Below, in pieces: positions 11,488 to 19,681 of a stretch of 39,604 nt of DNA. Origin of the DNA: Spirochaetaceae bacterium (lineage in GTDB: Bacteria > Spirochaetota > Spirochaetia > Treponematales > Breznakiellaceae); NCBI GenBank assembly GCA_031279015.1, contig JAITJI010000072.1, forward strand, positions 1 through 39,604. The letters are read 5' to 3'. How positions within the stretch are numbered: the stretch's first letter is position 1; the number at the start of each line of letters is the position of its first letter. The notes beneath the pieces are model-generated. The model was given only the letters and a program-made list of their open reading frames with translations. It was not told where the DNA came from and did no database searches. The translations under genes were made by a program, and so were the position numbers.

Positions 11488-13452
11488 CTATTTCTGACTT
11501 ATTCTGAGGGTATAATCGGTTTCCCAGAAACCGTCCGGTTCCAGGACGATCCGGTTTACCAGCATGATGCAGGTAGACTGATACCTATTGGCTATCTGAT
11601 CGTTCATGCGGCAGGGAAGCCACAGGGGGTACAGCCATAGATCAAAGGCCCGGCCAGAATGCAGGGCGATGGTTACCTCGTTTTTGATATCCCGGAATTC
11701 AATATTCCCCACCTCTAAAAGTTCCTCTGCCCCGTCCACCGGCTTTAGAAGAACCGGCTCTTTGGCGCCGGAGCAGAAGCCGGATATCTGCTGGTAGGAA
11801 TCCCCCTCTCCGGGAAAGGCAAGATCGATCCGGGGAATAAAACAAAACCGTTCCGTCTCCTCTCCGTGGTTTATCAACCGGTACCGGACCGTAAGGGTAT
11901 CCTTTTTCAGTTGATATTTTTTTTCAATTTCCACAAGCCCAAAGGGCAGTTCCGGCCTGGGGGGAAGCCGGAAGCAGAGTTTCCCGTGAACCCGGTCCAG
12001 ATCCAGGACTTCGTACTGCTCTATCCCGCAACAACGTCCGGCAGGGTCCTCATAAAAACTGCCGGCGGCGGATTCTTTGGCAAGCTCCTGAATAGCACTG
12101 TCAAAGGGGGAGAGAAAATCCACAAAGGCAGTTCTACGGATATTCTCCACGGAGAAAGCATCCCCAGGGCCGGACCGGCGGGGGGCCATGGTATCCAGAT
12201 AATTCCAGGTTTTGGGGAGGTAGTCCAGTTCAAAAATACTGGCCCCCTGGCTTTTAATGTAACAATTGATGTGAACATCCTGAAAGAGATACTCCCATTC
12301 CCCGTCAAGGTCAAAGTCAAAGACCAAGAGGGAGGGGACAAAGGCTCCCTTTTCCCGGGTGATCCGTTCGGCAACCAGAAGAGCCCGGTATACGGCATTC
12401 CGGGTGGTATTACGGTAAATACCGCCGTATTGGGTTTGGCAAAACACATCGTAACCCTGGGCCTTCCAGAGTTCTTCCCGGGCGGTACGTTTGCGGGACT
12501 TATCCCCCCGAAGCTGGTTGATAAGCACATTAATGAACATCATCTTGGAGTAGATGCCATTGGCTTCAGGGTAGTTGATGAGGAACTGCCGGGGACTGCC
12601 CGCCTCGGTCCATCCGGCGGTTTCTCTCTCCCGGTTTTGGAAACTGAATTCCCCTTCCAAAGAATCGGAAAAAAAGGCCTTTTTGAGCCCCCGGAGCGTT
12701 TTGTACAGCTTCCCCGGGGTGGTAAATTCTACAAAGGAATCACAGCGGGCAAGGTCTTCAAAGAATGCCTGAATCTCTTCATCCGTGACGGATTTTTTGC
12801 TCCCCAATGCCAGGTCCGGAAACACCGAAATGATCCGTCTTCTCCCTTCGTCCGCCAGTTTTTTCAGAATCAGGGAGGGCTTTTCCCGGAAAAAATCGGC
12901 GGCGCAGCGATTTGAGAAAGGGAAAATAGTTATCAACTTCCCCTGATCCTCGCTGATACAGGGGGCATAAAGATCCGGCCCGGACAAACCCGCCCGCAGA
13001 AACTGCTCCTCACTGAGAAAGGTGTACCCCATACCACAGGCGTTCAAAACCCCCAGCAGATTCTGTTCCCAGGCAAGGGCGGACAGCCAGCAACCCTGAG
13101 GGCGTTTCCCAAACTCCCTGCGGAGGTAGGTGGTAAGCATTTCAATCTGGCCTATCTTGTCCGGCAGGGGCAAGAGGGGCAGCAGGGGCTCATAAAAACC
13201 ACCCCCCAGCAATTCCACCTGTTTCCGGGCAACCAGATCCTTCATGAGCATAAAAAATTCGGGATGGATTTTTTCTATCCGCTGGAGTAAAACCCCGGAA
13301 TAATGCAAAACCGCCTGAATCGCAGGGTATTTATTCAAATTGACAACAAAAGGTTTCAGCTTTTTTGTATATATCCATTCCAATTCATCATCCCCGGTTC
13401 CCACGGGGACATGATTGTAAGAACCAATAATTAATTTTAGAGGAAATTCCAT
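11488..13452 (-). CDS. GH57-family (alpha-amylase/4-alpha-glucanotransferase-like) protein, nucleophile missing
   Basis: A 654-residue protein, the length of Thermococcus 4-alpha-glucanotransferase (about 659), with the same plan: an N-terminal glycoside hydrolase family 57 barrel (motif NHVPVG at 13-18, usually HNHQPVG), then helical and C-terminal beta domains. Conserved region 3, normally WLTER-VW, reads WLSALAW at 122-128, so the nucleophile glutamate (E123 in the Thermococcus enzyme) is alanine A125. A DGEWEYL segment corresponds to region 4, where the acid/base aspartate may be retained. GH57-like proteins lacking catalytic residues are known; this one may bind glucan, act in regulation, or use a different residue such as E129. 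It follows rnfA on the same strand but a terminator-like hairpin stands between. Confidence 0.8.
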   Translation of the reverse strand: MEFPLKLIIGSYNHVPVGTGDDELEWIYTKKLKPFVVNLNKYPAIQAVLHYSGVLLQRIEKIHPEFFMLMKDLVARKQVELLGGGFYEPLLPLLPLPDKIGQIEMLTTYLRREFGKRPQGCWLSALAWEQNLLGVLNACGMGYTFLSEEQFLRAGLSGPDLYAPCISEDQGKLITIFPFSNRCAADFFREKPSLILKKLADEGRRRIISVFPDLALGSKKSVTDEEIQAFFEDLARCDSFVEFTTPGKLYKTLRGLKKAFFSDSLEGEFSFQNRERETAGWTEAGSPRQFLINYPEANGIYSKMMFINVLINQLRGDKSRKRTAREELWKAQGYDVFCQTQYGGIYRNTTRNAVYRALLVAERITREKGAFVPSLLVFDFDLDGEWEYLFQDVHINCYIKSQGASIFELDYLPKTWNYLDTMAPRRSGPGDAFSVENIRRTAFVDFLSPFDSAIQELAKESAAGSFYEDPAGRCCGIEQYEVLDLDRVHGKLCFRLPPRPELPFGLVEIEKKYQLKKDTLTVRYRLINHGEETERFCFIPRIDLAFPGEGDSYQQISGFCSGAKEPVLLKPVDGAEELLEVGNIEFRDIKNEVTIALHSGRAFDLWLYPLWLPCRMNDQIANRYQSTCIMLVNRIVLEPDGFWETDYTLRISQK

Positions 13453-13559: not shown

Positions 13560-14141
13560 CTATACACCCAAAACCCGCAGCAAGATGACCGCCACGGATG
13601 AGGATATGAGGGAAAGCAAACCCATGGAGACAAACAGCAGGGGCATACCCCGCAGTATAGGGGGAATCGTTTCTATGGAAGAACGCCTGTAGATCGCGTT
13701 CAAAATGCGGGCGGCGGCGAAACTGCCCAGGGAAAACCCAAGGGAGAGAACTACCGCCCCGGCAAAAGAGCCGGCCAGGCGCATGGTGAGGAAGAAGGCC
13801 GCAATGGCAAGTCCGTCATGGACGCTCTTACCGGAGGTTTCCGGCCTATCCTGCCCGGGGAGAACAAGATATTTCGCCGCCTTTTCAAAACCCTGCCGAA
13901 CCGCTACAATGAGGGGAAAGACCAGAAAATATTCAAAAAACCCCAGGGAAAGGGGACTAAGGATATATATAAAAAACAGCCAGAGCAGGAGTACCGTCAC
14001 AAAAAGAAGGAACCACTGGAAAAGGGTATACCGTACCGGTCTTTGGTCTTCGGCTTCAAAATTTTGGATTCCCAGACCAAATTGCAGGAGGGGATTAAGG
14101 GAAAGACCTGAAAAGATCGCCAGAATCGCCAGTGCGCTCAT
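13560..14141 (-). CDS. rnfA: RnfA-like electron transport complex subunit, without cysteines
   Basis: A 193-residue polytopic membrane protein with about six hydrophobic segments, the size of RnfA/NqrE. In that family a cysteine in LGxCPF (near residue 25) and one in PLIxxNC help bind an intramembrane iron-sulfur cluster with RnfE. Here the sites read LGIQNF (Q26) and PLIVAVR (R82), and the protein has no cysteine anywhere. The C-terminal half, including the FSLGSFAAARI segment, still fits the family. The ATG overlaps the rnfE stop (ATGA), so it is the last gene of the operon. The symbol rests on position and fold; normal redox function is doubtful. Confidence 0.75.
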   Translation of the reverse strand: MSALAILAIFSGLSLNPLLQFGLGIQNFEAEDQRPVRYTLFQWFLLFVTVLLLWLFFIYILSPLSLGFFEYFLVFPLIVAVRQGFEKAAKYLVLPGQDRPETSGKSVHDGLAIAAFFLTMRLAGSFAGAVVLSLGFSLGSFAAARILNAIYRRSSIETIPPILRGMPLLFVSMGLLSLISSSVAVILLRVLGV

Positions 14142-14773
14142 AGGTTTCCCTCCGTATGGATATAACGGCTTCTAAAACGACGGAAGAGGGCAATGCCGTA
14201 GCCCAAAAGCAGTAATGCCCCGGCGGATCCGCTGATTATCCGTACCGGGGAAAACAATTCACCGGATCCGCTAAACAGCTCGATTATACCCCGTAGACCC
14301 CCGGGCAGGGAAAGGGAACCGTAACCCAGGGGTTCCCGAATCAGGGCCAGGGCGAGGATGAGCCCCCCCAGGGTCAGGGCCTCAAACACCACCCGCAACA
14401 CCCCTTCATCAGGGGCCAGGCCCTTCACCCGGTCAACGACTTCGGAGCTGATACAGGACACCGGCGCCAGGGCGATAATGAGGGCGGTTTCGATGGCGAG
14501 GAAGGGACTGGTCAGGGTCAATACCAGGAGATACAAACTGCTGAACAGGGCCGATAAAAACACGACGATCAGATTCTTTCCCTTTTTGGGGAAAAAGGGC
14601 CCGGCAAAACAGCAGACCAGGGCAGTCAATCCGTAGACCCACACCAGGACGCCCAGGGCGATGAAGGCAAAGGCGGTCCGGCTTGAGGCCATTACCAATA
14701 AACCCGCGCTTGTAAGGGTCGATAGGGGGGCGTAGGAACCCCAAAACAAATGGTTTTGATACCGCTGCATCAT
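14138..14773 (-). CDS. rnfE: RnfE/NqrD-like electron transport complex subunit
   Basis: A 211-residue membrane protein with about six helices, matching RnfE in size and place. The first ligand motif of the family (LGLCPxLA) is replaced by WGSYAPLS around residues 11-18, with no cysteine. Cysteines remain at 54, 55 and 107; C107 (APVSCISSE) lies near where the second ligand is expected, but the flanking residues do not match PLIxxNC. LTLGGLILALALIREPLGYGSL in the second half resembles the conserved RExLGxGS region of the family. The ATG overlaps the rnfG stop; two successive ATG codons are present and the first is used here. Confidence 0.75.
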   Translation of the reverse strand: MMQRYQNHLFWGSYAPLSTLTSAGLLVMASSRTAFAFIALGVLVWVYGLTALVCCFAGPFFPKKGKNLIVVFLSALFSSLYLLVLTLTSPFLAIETALIIALAPVSCISSEVVDRVKGLAPDEGVLRVVFEALTLGGLILALALIREPLGYGSLSLPGGLRGIIELFSGSGELFSPVRIISGSAGALLLLGYGIALFRRFRSRYIHTEGNL

Positions 14774-15297
14774 TGGATCCTGCCTTGAGAAATGGCGGTC
14801 ATGGCGCTGCGGAGCACCGTATTACCGGCTTCGATACGCCGGGTATAGATCCGCAGAGTCTCCGGGGGCAGCCGGTCCAGGACCTTTGCCGAGTGATTGC
14901 TCAGGGGTACAAGGGCATTGACCGCCCCCCCGGGGGAAACAACTGCAAAAAACGAGGCGGGGATCCCGTCGAACATTATAGGGAAAACCAGACCCCAGTC
15001 TTCGGAGTTGGCCAGGGTAAACCAGCTGCCTAACCGGGTAGCCCTACCGGGCATCTGCCAGGGAAGAATCGGGGCCTCCAGGCGCAGGGACAGCCCGGAA
15101 GTCGTCAGCACTCTGTTTACCGAATTTAGGAGAATCCTCCCCCGAATCGGCTGGGTAAAGAACCAGGACAGGCTCCCCAGAAGGAGTATAACCGCTATCC
15201 AGGCGGCGAAGATCCCCATATTCCGGAAATTCCCCGGCCTTCCCTCTTCCGGTCCTGTCCCGGGGGATTTCACCGGCAGGACATGTTCCCGGTTCAC
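14770..15297 (-). CDS. rnfG: RnfG-like subunit with a degenerate flavinylation motif
   Basis: A 175-residue protein with one membrane helix (about 28-48) followed by an extracytoplasmic domain, as in RnfG/NqrC. RnfG normally carries FMN on the last threonine of SGAT near its C-terminus, attached by ApbE. The matching place reads A157-G158-N159-T160 in IEAGNTVLRSAM: the threonine is kept but S, A and the upstream D of the consensus are lost. Covalent flavin attachment is therefore uncertain. The protein is shorter than usual (about 200). The start codon is GTG, overlapping the rnfD stop as GTGA. Assignment depends on gene order and topology. Confidence 0.65.
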   Translation of the reverse strand: MNREHVLPVKSPGTGPEEGRPGNFRNMGIFAAWIAVILLLGSLSWFFTQPIRGRILLNSVNRVLTTSGLSLRLEAPILPWQMPGRATRLGSWFTLANSEDWGLVFPIMFDGIPASFFAVVSPGGAVNALVPLSNHSAKVLDRLPPETLRIYTRRIEAGNTVLRSAMTAISQGRIQ

Positions 15298-16391
15298 GGA
15301 TTCCTCCTTGTTTCAACGGGCCAATACCGGTACAGTTTTTGGCGCTCAAACTCCCGGACAGCGGGGGTCAGGGCGTTGAAGAGAACAACGGCAAAAAAGG
15401 CGCCGTAGGGTTCACCCCCGGGATACCGGAAGACAAAGGCAAATATCCCCGTCAGGCAGGCGAAGATCCCCGAAGCGATTCCCGATTTTGGGCCTGTGGC
15501 CGGATCGGACGCCAGGAGGAATGCCGCCGGGATAATCCCGCCGGAAAAGAGGGCAAAGAGGATATCCCCCTGTCCCAGGCTTCCCCCCAAGGGCAGGGCG
15601 CCAAAGAACCGCACCGCCAGGCTGTAACAGACAAGGAATGCCAGGGGAACCCGCATACGGCTTACCCGGAAAGCGATAATGAGGATGGTCCCCAGGAGCA
15701 GAGCCAGAAGCCCCCGGTCTGCGATAATACCCGGTTCACGGAACAACAGGAGATCAATATACCCGACGGGTAATTCGGAATTGGTAAATGCAAAAATCGT
15801 GTCGTTCAAAAAGGCGGTAAAGCCGGCAACCCCGGAAAGAACCGCTGATGGTACGGAATTGGCCCGCAGTATCTCCAGGGGAGAAACCGGAGGCCCCGTT
15901 AGTCCCCGGCCAAGGCTGCCGTAAAACAGGGCCAGGGGGGAACCTTCCAGCGCCCGCTCAAAGGCATCGGGCCATGAAAAACGGACAAAGAGCCAGCCCC
16001 CCAGGGCGGTATTCAACCAGTTTGATCCCAGGCCGCCAAAGCTGTGTTTCACCACGATCATGGCAAAGAGGGCGCCTATGAAGGCCTGGAAGGGGCCTAA
16101 GGTGTTGGGAAGCAGCAGCGCAAAGATCAGGGCCGAGGCAACAGCGCTCCCATCCCACAGAGTCCGGACTCTGCACTTGCGGTTGCAGATCCATTCCACC
16201 GCCACAGCGGCAAGGACTGCGGCAAGGGCAAGCTGCAGGGAAACAAAAGAATCCGTCAGAGAGGATTGAAGTACAGCAAGACCCGCACAGAAACTGACCA
16301 GACACATCCGTTCGACGGTTGACCGGGAGAGGTTTACCTGGGGCCGCTGAAACGGGGCCCGCACTGACAAAGCAGCATCCCTGTTCAGCAT
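15294..16391 (-). CDS. rnfD: RnfD-like electron transport complex subunit
   Basis: A 365-residue polytopic protein of the RnfD/NqrB family. Clear family blocks are LGSNWLNTALGGWLFVRFSWP (around 121-141) and GGIIPAAFLLASDPATGPKS in the C-terminal third, followed by GIFAFVFRYPGGEPYG and LFNALTPAV. In normal RnfD, FMN is attached to the threonine of SGATPL. The corresponding segment here is TGPPVSPLEIL (165-175): PL is preceded by serine S170 but SGAT itself is gone. The ATG is one base after the rnfC stop. The fold assignment is firm; the loss of the canonical flavin site is seen directly by motif. Confidence 0.85.
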   Translation of the reverse strand: MLNRDAALSVRAPFQRPQVNLSRSTVERMCLVSFCAGLAVLQSSLTDSFVSLQLALAAVLAAVAVEWICNRKCRVRTLWDGSAVASALIFALLLPNTLGPFQAFIGALFAMIVVKHSFGGLGSNWLNTALGGWLFVRFSWPDAFERALEGSPLALFYGSLGRGLTGPPVSPLEILRANSVPSAVLSGVAGFTAFLNDTIFAFTNSELPVGYIDLLLFREPGIIADRGLLALLLGTILIIAFRVSRMRVPLAFLVCYSLAVRFFGALPLGGSLGQGDILFALFSGGIIPAAFLLASDPATGPKSGIASGIFACLTGIFAFVFRYPGGEPYGAFFAVVLFNALTPAVREFERQKLYRYWPVETRRNP

Positions 16392-16392
16392 A

Positions 16393-17697
16393 TTAATTCC
16401 CCCTCAGGGCGGCATCCGCTATGGTGGTGCTCAGGGGAAGCCGGGATGGACACACCACCTCGCAACAGCCGCAACCGTGACATTCCGCCGCCAGGGTTGC
16501 CAGAGTCTCCCGGTTCCGGCGGATCTGGGCGATCTTGAAGAGTTCCTCCGGGTCCAGACCCACGGGGCAGACGCTCCGGCATTCCCCGCAGCCGATACAT
16601 CTCCGGGCAAAGGTTCCTCCCAGCCGGGATTCCGGAATGGCGAATACTGCATAACTTGTTTTTATTATGGGCTCATCAAGATCCGCCACTGCCCTTCCAA
16701 GGATCGGTGAACCGGAGGCTATCCGCTTTGGCTTATCCACAAAACCGCCGCATTCGGCAAATATTTCACCGATCCGGGTACCGATCCGTACCTTCATCAC
16801 CTGGGGATTCTTGACCGCCGCCCCGCCAACCGCTACATACCGGTCAAGGATAGGTTTCTTCAACTTTACCGCATCATGAACGGCCGCCAGAGTAGCCGGT
16901 CCCAGGATGAGCAGGGAGCCCAGGGGGATCTCCTCCCTTTTTTCGTAGAGCCGCAGAACCAGTTCCAGCTCCCGCCTGTTCCGTTGGGGATACCGGGAAC
17001 CGACCAGAATCAGGGAAGAGGAAACATCCCAGGATTCCGCCTCTGCCAGAAGCGAAGTCCCCAATGCCTGCTCTGACCGGGAGACCGCAAAAACAATGCG
17101 GCCAATCCGTCCCGCCCGGGCAAGGATGACGCTCCCCTCCACCACAGCCTTGAGCCGTTCCCGGCAGAGCACATAATCCGCGGCAAGCCAGGGATCGTCA
17201 AAGACACAACGGACCACCAGGGTCAGAGGTTCCCGGGCGGAATGAAGACCCGAGAGCATGTCCGATACAGGATATCCCGTTCCCTCCATCTCCACGATGC
17301 CGTATTCAGAGATAAGCCGTTGCAACTCAAAGGGAGAAAGCCCCTGCCAGGAGAATACCTCCTCCGGTTTCCCCAGCTTTTCAAAGGCCCCCTCAAGCCG
17401 AATCACCAAGGCATCGCTGATTTGCCCATCCGTTGTCTTTCGGGATACCATCCGGATTACCTTGCCCGGAACAGTGGCATGGATATTCGTAGACCCAAAA
17501 CCCTGCCCCCGGCCGATAAGCATACCCTCTTTTACGTAATCACCCACGGAAACAATGGGATACGCCCGGCTTCCGGTGTGCTGAACCAGGGGTATCACCG
17601 AAAGGCCGGGAAGAAAGGCGATCACACTTGAATCTTTTGCCGGAACCGTGGAATCCTCAAAATAAATCCCTCCCCGGGGGAATGAATATACTTTCAT
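16393..17697 (-). CDS. rnfC: RnfC-like electron transport complex subunit with two 4Fe-4S motifs
   Basis: A 434-residue peripheral subunit. Order: N-terminal barrel-sandwich domain (PIVSVGDYVKEGMLIG, ATVPGKVI), a Rossmann-like domain, a SLBB-like segment, and a C-terminal ferredoxin domain with complete motifs C367-C370-C373-C377P and C406-C409-C412-C416P. Standard RnfC has GLGGAGFP and NGAECEPYL motifs for FMN and NADH. Here they are EMEGTGYP (136-143) and RCVFDDPWL (163-171), so flavin/NADH binding is probably altered or lost while cluster binding is intact. It overlaps the preceding membrane protein gene by ATGA. Confidence 0.88.
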   Translation of the reverse strand: MKVYSFPRGGIYFEDSTVPAKDSSVIAFLPGLSVIPLVQHTGSRAYPIVSVGDYVKEGMLIGRGQGFGSTNIHATVPGKVIRMVSRKTTDGQISDALVIRLEGAFEKLGKPEEVFSWQGLSPFELQRLISEYGIVEMEGTGYPVSDMLSGLHSAREPLTLVVRCVFDDPWLAADYVLCRERLKAVVEGSVILARAGRIGRIVFAVSRSEQALGTSLLAEAESWDVSSSLILVGSRYPQRNRRELELVLRLYEKREEIPLGSLLILGPATLAAVHDAVKLKKPILDRYVAVGGAAVKNPQVMKVRIGTRIGEIFAECGGFVDKPKRIASGSPILGRAVADLDEPIIKTSYAVFAIPESRLGGTFARRCIGCGECRSVCPVGLDPEELFKIAQIRRNRETLATLAAECHGCGCCEVVCPSRLPLSTTIADAALRGN

Positions 17698-19181
17698 GCT
17701 GCAACCTGTTTATCAGTATACACTAAAAGGGCGTCCTTTTTCCTGTAGGATCTACCGGTACCAAAGAGGGACAACAAACCCGGAATAAAAATGATAAACA
17801 CCGGCATCAGATCCCAAACCCCCCGGTCCGGTACAGGCCGGAGGACCTCACTGCCAAGAAAAATCACAAGATCCTCCAGCGGAAAGGGCGGAAAGTCCCC
17901 TGTCTCCGGATACTCCTCCGCAAGGGGAATACTCCCGGAGATAAGGCCATCAGCCCCCAGGGTATAATGGAGGTAGGGGTAAGACCCCGTCCCCTCCCCC
18001 GGGAGCAGCTCCGCCGGCCCGGCGCCCAGGGGACGCAGGGAAAAGAAGGCCTGAAAAACCGCATGGCGGTAGTAGTCTCCGGCGGAGGGGAGGAACAAAT
18101 CCGTCCCCCTGCCATCGGTATCCCGGAAATCACTCCTGAACGGCAGCGAAGACCCCAGGGAAACCAGGGAAGCCAGGGCAAAGGGAAGGACGATCCGGGG
18201 GAATCGGGAGAGGCGCAGTGAAGGCTCCCGGATATCCACCGGCAAAAAGATGATGTGATCCCGAATCTTCCCCCGGTTTGCCTCGGTTTGGAGGGATGTA
18301 CAGAGGACGCAAAAAAAAGAGACCAGCGCCGCCAGGGCTATCAGAACCGGTATTTCCCCGGCAAAACAGATGAGCCCGTAGACCAGGAGGAACACAGCCG
18401 CCAGGACCCAGGAGATCCGGTAGCTTCCCCATTGAAATCCCCCGGTCCGGGAGGAAAAGGACTGCATCCTGTAACGGCGGGAAATAAAAAACTCCCTCAA
18501 AGGGGCAAGGGTTACGCCGAAGAGTCCGAAAAACGCCCCCGACAGGGCAAAACCCGCCGGACCGTTCAGGGCAAAGGGGGCCAGAAAGGGCAGCAGCGAG
18601 AGGGCCGGCAAAAAGGCCCTTCCGGACTTTTCCGGACGAAAGGCGGAGAGGATCAGGGTTCCCAGGGACGCGCATCCAAAGAGAATCAAATACCACAGGA
18701 CAGGCTGCGGGGCCCGGGGCAATACCAGAGAGTAAGAGATCTCCCCCAGTGACAGGGCAACTTTTTTTTGCAGAACCCGGTAACCGTCATAGTATATGAG
18801 GGGTCCCTTTGCAGCAGACAGGGGGATATAAAAAAAACGCCGCCCTTCCCGGACAAAAAAATCGTGAAGCTGTTCCGCATAACCATCATTCCGGGGATCA
18901 AAGACCTCAACCCGGTTCCGAAATTCCGGAAGGGGGATCCGTTCCAGGGTTCCAAAATCATCTAAAAACACCCACTGGGAGGATTCAGAGATGAGTCCCC
19001 CAATGCCGTTCCGGTTCAGGGCCTCCACAACAGGCCCTTCGGCAACGGTTTCATCCAGGGAGAGGATCCCATAGCCTCCGCCGGCCCTATGGGGAATGAA
19101 GGCCTTCGTATAAACCAGGGACAGGAGGCCGAAAAGCAGGGGGATCAATAGACATGCCGCAAGGCTTTTACGCGTTAACAT
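17694..19181 (-). CDS. Polytopic membrane protein of unknown function, coupled to rnfC
   Basis: A 495-residue protein I do not recognise. Residues ~7-28 form a membrane anchor or signal segment, then comes a ~130-residue extracytoplasmic stretch (about 30-155). About eight hydrophobic helices follow between 160 and 355, with short loops. A second soluble stretch (about 355-460) contains DLFLPSAGDYYRHAVFQAFF, and a final helix lies near 462-478. There is no cofactor motif or cysteine cluster. It is joined to rnfC by an ATGA overlap and lies 11 bp after the DUF212 gene, so it is an integral part of the Rnf operon. It may be an accessory or replacement subunit; that is inference from position only. 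Confidence 0.75.
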   Translation of the reverse strand: MLTRKSLAACLLIPLLFGLLSLVYTKAFIPHRAGGGYGILSLDETVAEGPVVEALNRNGIGGLISESSQWVFLDDFGTLERIPLPEFRNRVEVFDPRNDGYAEQLHDFFVREGRRFFYIPLSAAKGPLIYYDGYRVLQKKVALSLGEISYSLVLPRAPQPVLWYLILFGCASLGTLILSAFRPEKSGRAFLPALSLLPFLAPFALNGPAGFALSGAFFGLFGVTLAPLREFFISRRYRMQSFSSRTGGFQWGSYRISWVLAAVFLLVYGLICFAGEIPVLIALAALVSFFCVLCTSLQTEANRGKIRDHIIFLPVDIREPSLRLSRFPRIVLPFALASLVSLGSSLPFRSDFRDTDGRGTDLFLPSAGDYYRHAVFQAFFSLRPLGAGPAELLPGEGTGSYPYLHYTLGADGLISGSIPLAEEYPETGDFPPFPLEDLVIFLGSEVLRPVPDRGVWDLMPVFIIFIPGLLSLFGTGRSYRKKDALLVYTDKQVAA

Positions 19182-19192
19182 GGGAAGGGATC

Positions 19193-19681
19193 CTATAAAA
19201 ACGCGTAAGCGGCGGCTATGAAAATACCCAACAGCGCCCCCATGACCACTTCCAGGGGAGCGTGTCCGTGTACTTCTTTAATCGAATGAAATTCTATATT
19301 CGATTTTTCCGCAAGCTGCCGGCCCAGCATATTAATGATTCTGGCCTGAATACCCACGGAACGACGGACTCCCATGGCATCCCTCATGACAATAAGGGCG
19401 ATGAAAAAGGATACAACAAAAAGATTGGATTTAACTCCCTCCTGAACCGCCACCTGGGTAGTCATGGAAGAGACCAGAGCCGCATGACTGGAAGGCATGC
19501 CGCCGGTACGCCATGCAATGGTTTCCAGAATTTCCCTGCCTGTTCTTCGATGTCCTCTGAGCAATACAATAACCGCCTTTAGAAGCTGCGCAAGCAGCCA
19601 GCTTAACATAGAAGATAAAAAAATCGGGTTTTCAATAAAGGCCCTTACCGATTCCACCCGCATAACTATGAGAAAAGACAT
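19193..19681 (-). CDS. Divergent PAP2 family (DUF212) membrane protein
   Basis: A 162-residue protein with four or five hydrophobic segments. WRTGGMPSSHAALVSSMTTQV (57-77) is the conserved PSSHA motif, and KEVHGHAPLEVVMGALLG near the C-terminus is the second family motif (GHTPxEVxxGxxLG); both belong to DUF212 (acid phosphatase/vanadium haloperoxidase-related). In PAP2 enzymes these motifs hold the catalytic histidines, so a membrane phosphatase acting on a lipid phosphate is possible. It is the first gene of the operon leading to rnfA. The start at 19681 lacks a good ribosome binding site; the in-frame ATG at 19663 is an alternative. Confidence 0.85.
   Translation of the reverse strand: MSFLIVMRVESVRAFIENPIFLSSMLSWLLAQLLKAVIVLLRGHRRTGREILETIAWRTGGMPSSHAALVSSMTTQVAVQEGVKSNLFVVSFFIALIVMRDAMGVRRSVGIQARIINMLGRQLAEKSNIEFHSIKEVHGHAPLEVVMGALLGIFIAAAYAFL

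Follow-up and report, generated by a model that had tools for sequence, protein, structure and literature searches.

The best described relatives of the locus studied here are the Rnf and Na+-NQR complexes. Rnf passes electrons from RnfB via the [2Fe-2S] cluster of RnfA/E and the FMN of RnfG to the FMN and riboflavin of RnfD, and from the RnfD riboflavin via the two [4Fe-4S] clusters and the FMN of RnfC to NAD+ (PMC9588780, PMC11889175). In Acetobacterium woodii (A. woodii), mutation of the AE1 or B8 cysteines, of the FMN-G site or of the RnfD riboflavin ligands abolishes ferredoxin-dependent NAD+ reduction, the N123 and D249 mutations in RnfD being those that target the riboflavin and abolish activity (PMC11889175). 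The transition from Rnf to Nqr has been proposed to have started with the loss of RnfB, after which RnfC lost its NAD, FMN and Fe-S sites, and Na+-NQR with its NqrA subunit is a precedent both for an RnfC homologue minus FMN and NAD and for an rnf operon minus RnfB (PMC4014512). With regard to spirochaetes, T. pallidum has been postulated to have an atypical, flavin-based RNF pump (PMC7512555), and papers on termite-gut treponemes, in the passages located, treat Rnf as a pump and mention no second Rnf complex in termite-gut spirochaetes (PMC13067680, PMC12483993).

The window, i.e. the whole stretch of 39,604 nucleotides that was analysed, contains rnfC-, D-, G-, E- and A-like genes in the same order as in the Rnf of A. 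woodii, C. tetanomorphum and A. vinelandii, and all window coordinates given below refer to features on the minus strand. The RnfC-like subunit (434 aa, 16393..17697) was identified by domain and profile matches and by alignment to solved chains; its reading frame runs from 17697 to 16393, and the plus-strand reading is interrupted by stops. All RnfC domains are present (RnfC_N, the NuoF-like FMN domain, SLBB and 2x[4Fe-4S]), and the closest solved relatives are the RnfC proteins of C. tetanomorphum, A. vinelandii and A. woodii, for which the solved chains 7zc6, 8ahx and 9eri were aligned using HMMER. With the NCBI rnfC model TIGR01945 the protein scores 238.6 bits and thus falls just under the cut-off of 245.95, compared with 461.5 bits for a canonical RnfC from the same genome. 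Three other identities were considered and rejected: NqrA, with 38.7 bits against a cut-off of 450 and with Fe-S motifs being present in the window protein, RsxC of the SoxR-reducing complex (205 bits against an equivalog cut-off of 345) and PrdC (83.1 against an equivalog cut-off of 490 bits).

The sequence-only reading had described both CxxCxxCxxxCP motifs of RnfC as perfect, and the frame and alignments bear this out: the first, CIGCGECRSVCP, covers residues 367-378 (16564..16599) with cysteines C367, C370, C373 and C377 followed by P378, and the second, CHGCGCCEVVCP, covers residues 406-417 (16447..16482) with C406, C409, C412 and C416 followed by P417. Three further loops hold FMN and NAD in NuoF/Nqo1 and in RnfC, and all three are replaced in the window protein. 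Residues 136-143 (EMEGTGYP, 17269..17292) stand at the place of the FMN glycine loop GMGGAGFP, and residues 163-171 (RCVFDDPWL, 17185..17211) at the place of NGAECEPYL; both replacements had been read from the sequence before, and both were recovered in the HMMER alignments to the three solved chains and in multiple alignments, where GIVEMEGTGYP pairs with GIVGMGGAGFP, and (V)RCVFDDPWLAAD with (V)NGAECEPYLTxD. The multiple alignments add the third FMN loop, where LGPAT (residues 265-269, 16891..16905) takes the place of QNVGT (LILGPAT in the window versus canonical IVQNVGT). In the family alignment neither the canonical loop 1 nor ECEP is kept in any of 82 rows, and all eight cysteines are kept in 80 of the 81 rows covering the Fe-S domain, while RCVFDDPWL lies within the least variable 0.2% of stretches of equal length and is the most constrained part of RnfC in the family. 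The loop replacement is common to the orthologues in approximately 80 Breznakiellaceae loci, which were gathered partly via patterns built from these same RnfC peptides; a whole-genome protein search, independent of the peptide patterns, recovered the same loops in 24 correctly framed genomes, a count which leaves out four wrong-frame rows and one missing row. Judged from these sequences, the replaced loops are a lineage trait and neither chance nor decay, and since all three FMN/NAD loops are lost, this RnfC would not be expected to react with NADH as RnfC normally does, in agreement with what had been suggested from two loops.

The membrane subunits show further losses. The RnfD-like subunit (15294..16391; profile matches and alignments) keeps the riboflavin ligands as N127 and D296, equivalent to N123 and D249 of A. 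woodii, and the relatives have N in 80/80 and D or E in 80/80 sequences, although the D249 position is lost in one Treponemataceae genus and the riboflavin site is therefore not universal. The loop which in Rnf bears the flavinylated Thr/Ser of RnfD has degenerated in the window (GPPVSPLEIL), and roughly one in three family members has a deletion of this loop, as counted by eye. A change from Thr to Ser was rejected as a sign of site loss, as several fully equipped native operons (L219, L220, L226, L232, L233 and L235) also have Ser at this site (SGASPL), and it is the erosion of the motif and the deletions which count; the RnfD FMN is doubtful for the complex encoded here, which we refer to as the stripped complex. 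The RnfG-like subunit (14770..15297), with a single N-terminal membrane helix and a soluble domain, was assigned from position, topology and weak profile matches, with an E-value of 0.1 when compared directly with canonical RnfG, and of 1e-5 and 6e-4 when compared via less divergent loci. The window RnfG-like protein contains no SGAT-type flavinylation motif, and its C-terminus is ragged across the family. In the source genome, thirteen FMN_bind matches and zero ApbE were found by a like search, with the genome being about 90% complete and the latter thus possibly representing a gap.

Similar losses affect the subunits that hold the membrane cluster. The RnfE-like subunit (14138..14773; family profile and alignments) has lost the first cluster cysteine, and the second (VSC) is present in the window and in only 40 of 78 relatives, while the RnfA-like subunit (13560..14141; family profile and sequence) has zero cysteines. 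The family profiles of both proteins match canonical RnfE and RnfA, and the Pfam Rnf-Nqr model gave no match to the window E- and A-like proteins. The RnfE, RnfA and RnfG alignments are at low identity, with the absence of cysteines from RnfA and the absence of RnfB from the operon being independent of any alignment. Without a cysteine in RnfA and without the first cysteine of RnfE, a membrane [2Fe-2S] cluster of the known kind could not form. There is no rnfB in the window operon, and the genome has a single rnfB that scores above the cut-off, in the canonical operon.

The stripped complex is like Rnf in its RnfC domains, its two [4Fe-4S] motifs and its RnfD riboflavin ligands, and unlike Rnf in lacking RnfB, the RnfA/E [2Fe-2S] site, the RnfG flavinylation motif and the RnfC FMN/NAD loops and in having a degenerate RnfD flavin loop, so that the "other losses" mentioned in the sequence-only reading are real. 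Nearly all electron-carrying sites appear to be gone, leaving the two Fe-S clusters and probably one riboflavin. The U-shaped route that electrons take through Rnf would be cut without the lost carriers, and with these missing we infer that the known modes of ferredoxin:NAD+ oxidoreduction and of redox-driven ion pumping are closed to the complex; both a ferredoxin:NAD+ reaction and redox-driven pumping by the stripped complex are very unlikely. The intact overall domain architecture would allow for an ordinary RnfC which binds FMN and NADH by unusual loops, within an Rnf pump that has diverged but still works, yet three loops have changed together in a complex whose RnfA has no cysteine, whose RnfB is absent and whose RnfG has lost its flavinylation motif, and we give this explanation very little credence.

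The number of lost cofactor sites, together with an RnfC score below the TIGR01945 cut-off, could also be taken as the mark of a decaying remnant without function, and "remnant" was one of the terms used in the sequence-only reading. This part of that reading was not borne out. The median dN/dS for close pairs is 0.13 for C, 0.19 for D, 0.21 for both E and A, 0.30 for U (the membrane protein encoded upstream of rnfC, see below) and 0.33 for G, i.e. all of the subunits evolve under purifying selection, and conservation of the operon extends across families. Plain decay was rejected on these dN/dS values, and the intact frames in dozens of species and the near-invariant new residues in RnfC likewise make it a most improbable explanation.

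The gene order DUF212-U-RnfC-D-G-E-A-(B)-GH57 recurs across the Treponematales and other families of the class Spirochaetia. In the window, U (17694..19181) is a 495-aa membrane protein directly upstream of rnfC, for which searches gave no known family, with nothing beyond chance in Pfam or PDB and a non-significant top Pfam hint (DUF5693, E 0.44). It has the conserved stretches SESxQWVFLDDFG, DPRNDGY and HxxFQ, and is found in 86/118 Spirochaetia genomes. The syntenic neighbours, both assigned by domain match and synteny, are a DUF212 (divergent PAP2) protein upstream (19193..19681) and a GH57 alpha-amylase/4-alpha-glucanotransferase-like protein downstream (11488..13452); in relatives rnfB lies just before the GH57 gene, and it is absent from that place in the window. 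Two loci (L230:989-5107 and L237:9953-12080) have DUF212 and U without any rnf genes, the former also with GH57, and U and DUF212 thus need not belong to the complex; U may have its own function.

Twenty loci from other families were scored for RnfC, RnfD, the membrane cysteines and RnfB. Thirteen of these have canonical RnfC loops, the RnfD flavin motif (Thr/Ser), four membrane cysteines and RnfB, and L236 and L238 resemble such fully equipped loci where genes were found. Cofactor content is graded elsewhere: L120 comes close to the canonical state, L117, L167 and L169 combine altered RnfC FMN loops with retention of RnfB, of the membrane cysteines and of the Thr in RnfD, partial cofactor sets are found at L119, L123, L170-L173 and L229, L168 is also among the partial stages, and most cofactor sites are lost in the Treponemataceae and Breznakiellaceae. 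Shortened RnfB-like proteins of ~190-215 aa adjoin some stripped operons (L121:12017-12619, L174:4258-4872, L176:4231-4878 and L180:3818-4396). In RnfC trees the Breznakiellaceae rows group together (100/100) and are joined to the Treponemataceae (99/99), and the canonical second-Rnf rows form a group, while long branches and a midpoint root leave the placement of the stripped rows with respect to native canonical ones uncertain. Synteny is the stronger argument for a native origin of the stripped operon, and from gene order and motif content we read the window locus as the native spirochaetal Rnf operon, stepwise stripped in the Treponematales.

A separate contig of the source genome (C105, locus L113) has genes for six subunits (RnfC, D, G, E, A and B), with every motif present, and with a complete canonical Rnf elsewhere in the genome, the stripped operon is no substitute for the normal pump in the source organism; the ferredoxin:NAD+ and pumping job would be done by this separate canonical Rnf. 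Termite-gut spirochaetes maintain two complexes, a normal Rnf and the Rnf-derived one described here. As both sets are encoded in most of the Treponematales genomes examined, the stripped subunits could be an accessory of the canonical Rnf, joining its cofactor-bearing subunits as for instance a regulatory or assembly partner. Such a role is improbable, as the stripped set is present and canonical RnfA was not detected in G044, G165, G170 and four small, multi-replicon genomes of the same class which we take to be Borrelia-like.

G044 (a single contig of 1,139,633 bases) is presumably T. pallidum. It contains the stripped operon only, and canonical rnfA was not found in this genome. Its RnfC keeps the eight cysteines without the FMN loops, and the operon also lacks RnfB, the RnfG/RnfD flavinylation motifs and the RnfA/E cysteines. 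The noncanonical RNF postulated for T. pallidum is probably the same locus; that study proposes a flavin-based redox pump (PMC7512555), whereas the sequence of the G044 operon speaks against any pump of a known type. In the 1.14-Mb Treponema genome, where only the stripped operon is present (L114:3431-10013), RnfC has a long insertion in the FMN loop region and U is missing. In the four Borrelia-like genomes RnfC and RnfD are fused, with zero CxxC motifs. The gene order, taken from one inspected genome (L194:4867-9702), is DUF212-U-(RnfC::RnfD fusion, 768 aa, no CxxC)-RnfA, with the fusion conserved in four genomes (L211-L214). As the fused RnfC-RnfD is kept together with RnfA and U without Fe-S ligands, the core role of the complex would not be electron transfer. 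The locus is thus also present in relatives which by inference include the syphilis and Lyme spirochaetes; searches of open-licence papers for TP0152 and BB0072 found nothing.

The losses in the spirochaetal operon are of the same kind as those proposed for the Rnf-to-Nqr transition, with in addition the loss of membrane cofactors which Nqr keeps. NqrA differs from the stripped RnfC in that its Fe-S clusters are gone, whereas the motifs are retained here, and Na+-NQR has kept its membrane cofactors and gained NqrF, whereas the stripped complex has lost most of its membrane cofactors and no NqrF gene is present in its operon.

The explanation we favour, at a probability of roughly 0.5, is that the complex arose from the native Rnf by cofactor stripping and now has a role other than pumping, in which the Fe-S/riboflavin module would serve as a short relay or sensor. 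The retained sites are contiguous in known Rnf structures, where the RnfD riboflavin lies beside the two RnfC clusters (geometry from PMC9588780), and RnfC and RnfD would stay tightly joined as the physical core. The cluster pair and riboflavin may form a short cytoplasm-side relay or a redox/iron sensor, with the former FMN/NAD face and its invariant RCVFDDPWL surface holding a new ligand or partner, and the membrane part may have a non-redox role in transport, gating or as a scaffold, tuned by the Fe-S/riboflavin module; no candidate transport or scaffold substrate was found. The chief argument for a non-redox core is the fused Borrelia-like version without clusters. The retained clusters and riboflavin ligands would also fit real electron transfer with some partner. 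The main alternative, a device for true electron transfer whose new cytosolic partner docks on the remodelled FMN face of RnfC, would be in keeping with the contiguity of the retained sites, the conservation of the eight cysteines and the strong constraint on the second loop, and the loci L117, L167 and L169, where the RnfC loops were altered first and the other sites kept, suggest a changed electron exit. However, no partner gene lies in the operon, a membrane acceptor for the complex is not known, and in the Borrelia-like version the complex persists without clusters, so that we see such a device as possible but rather unlikely.

In terms of evolution, the stripped, non-pumping complex may be the outcome of a conversion of the Rnf core within its own operon and through living intermediates, which would have given a non-redox complex without a transmembrane electron path across the Treponematales and Borreliaceae; we put this forward tentatively, at a little short of an even chance. 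If true, what is supposed to be an Rnf pump in the syphilis spirochaete would be something other than a redox pump. An rnf annotation is taken to indicate a respiratory pump, including for termite-gut treponemes (PMC13067680, PMC12483993). If the native spirochaetal Rnf is stripped and yet under selection, then the bioenergetic models of treponemes and of T. pallidum would need revision, and the spirochaete intermediates would form a series that mirrors the transition proposed from Rnf to Nqr (PMC4014512) and would raise the puzzle of what role a pump scaffold has without its electrons.
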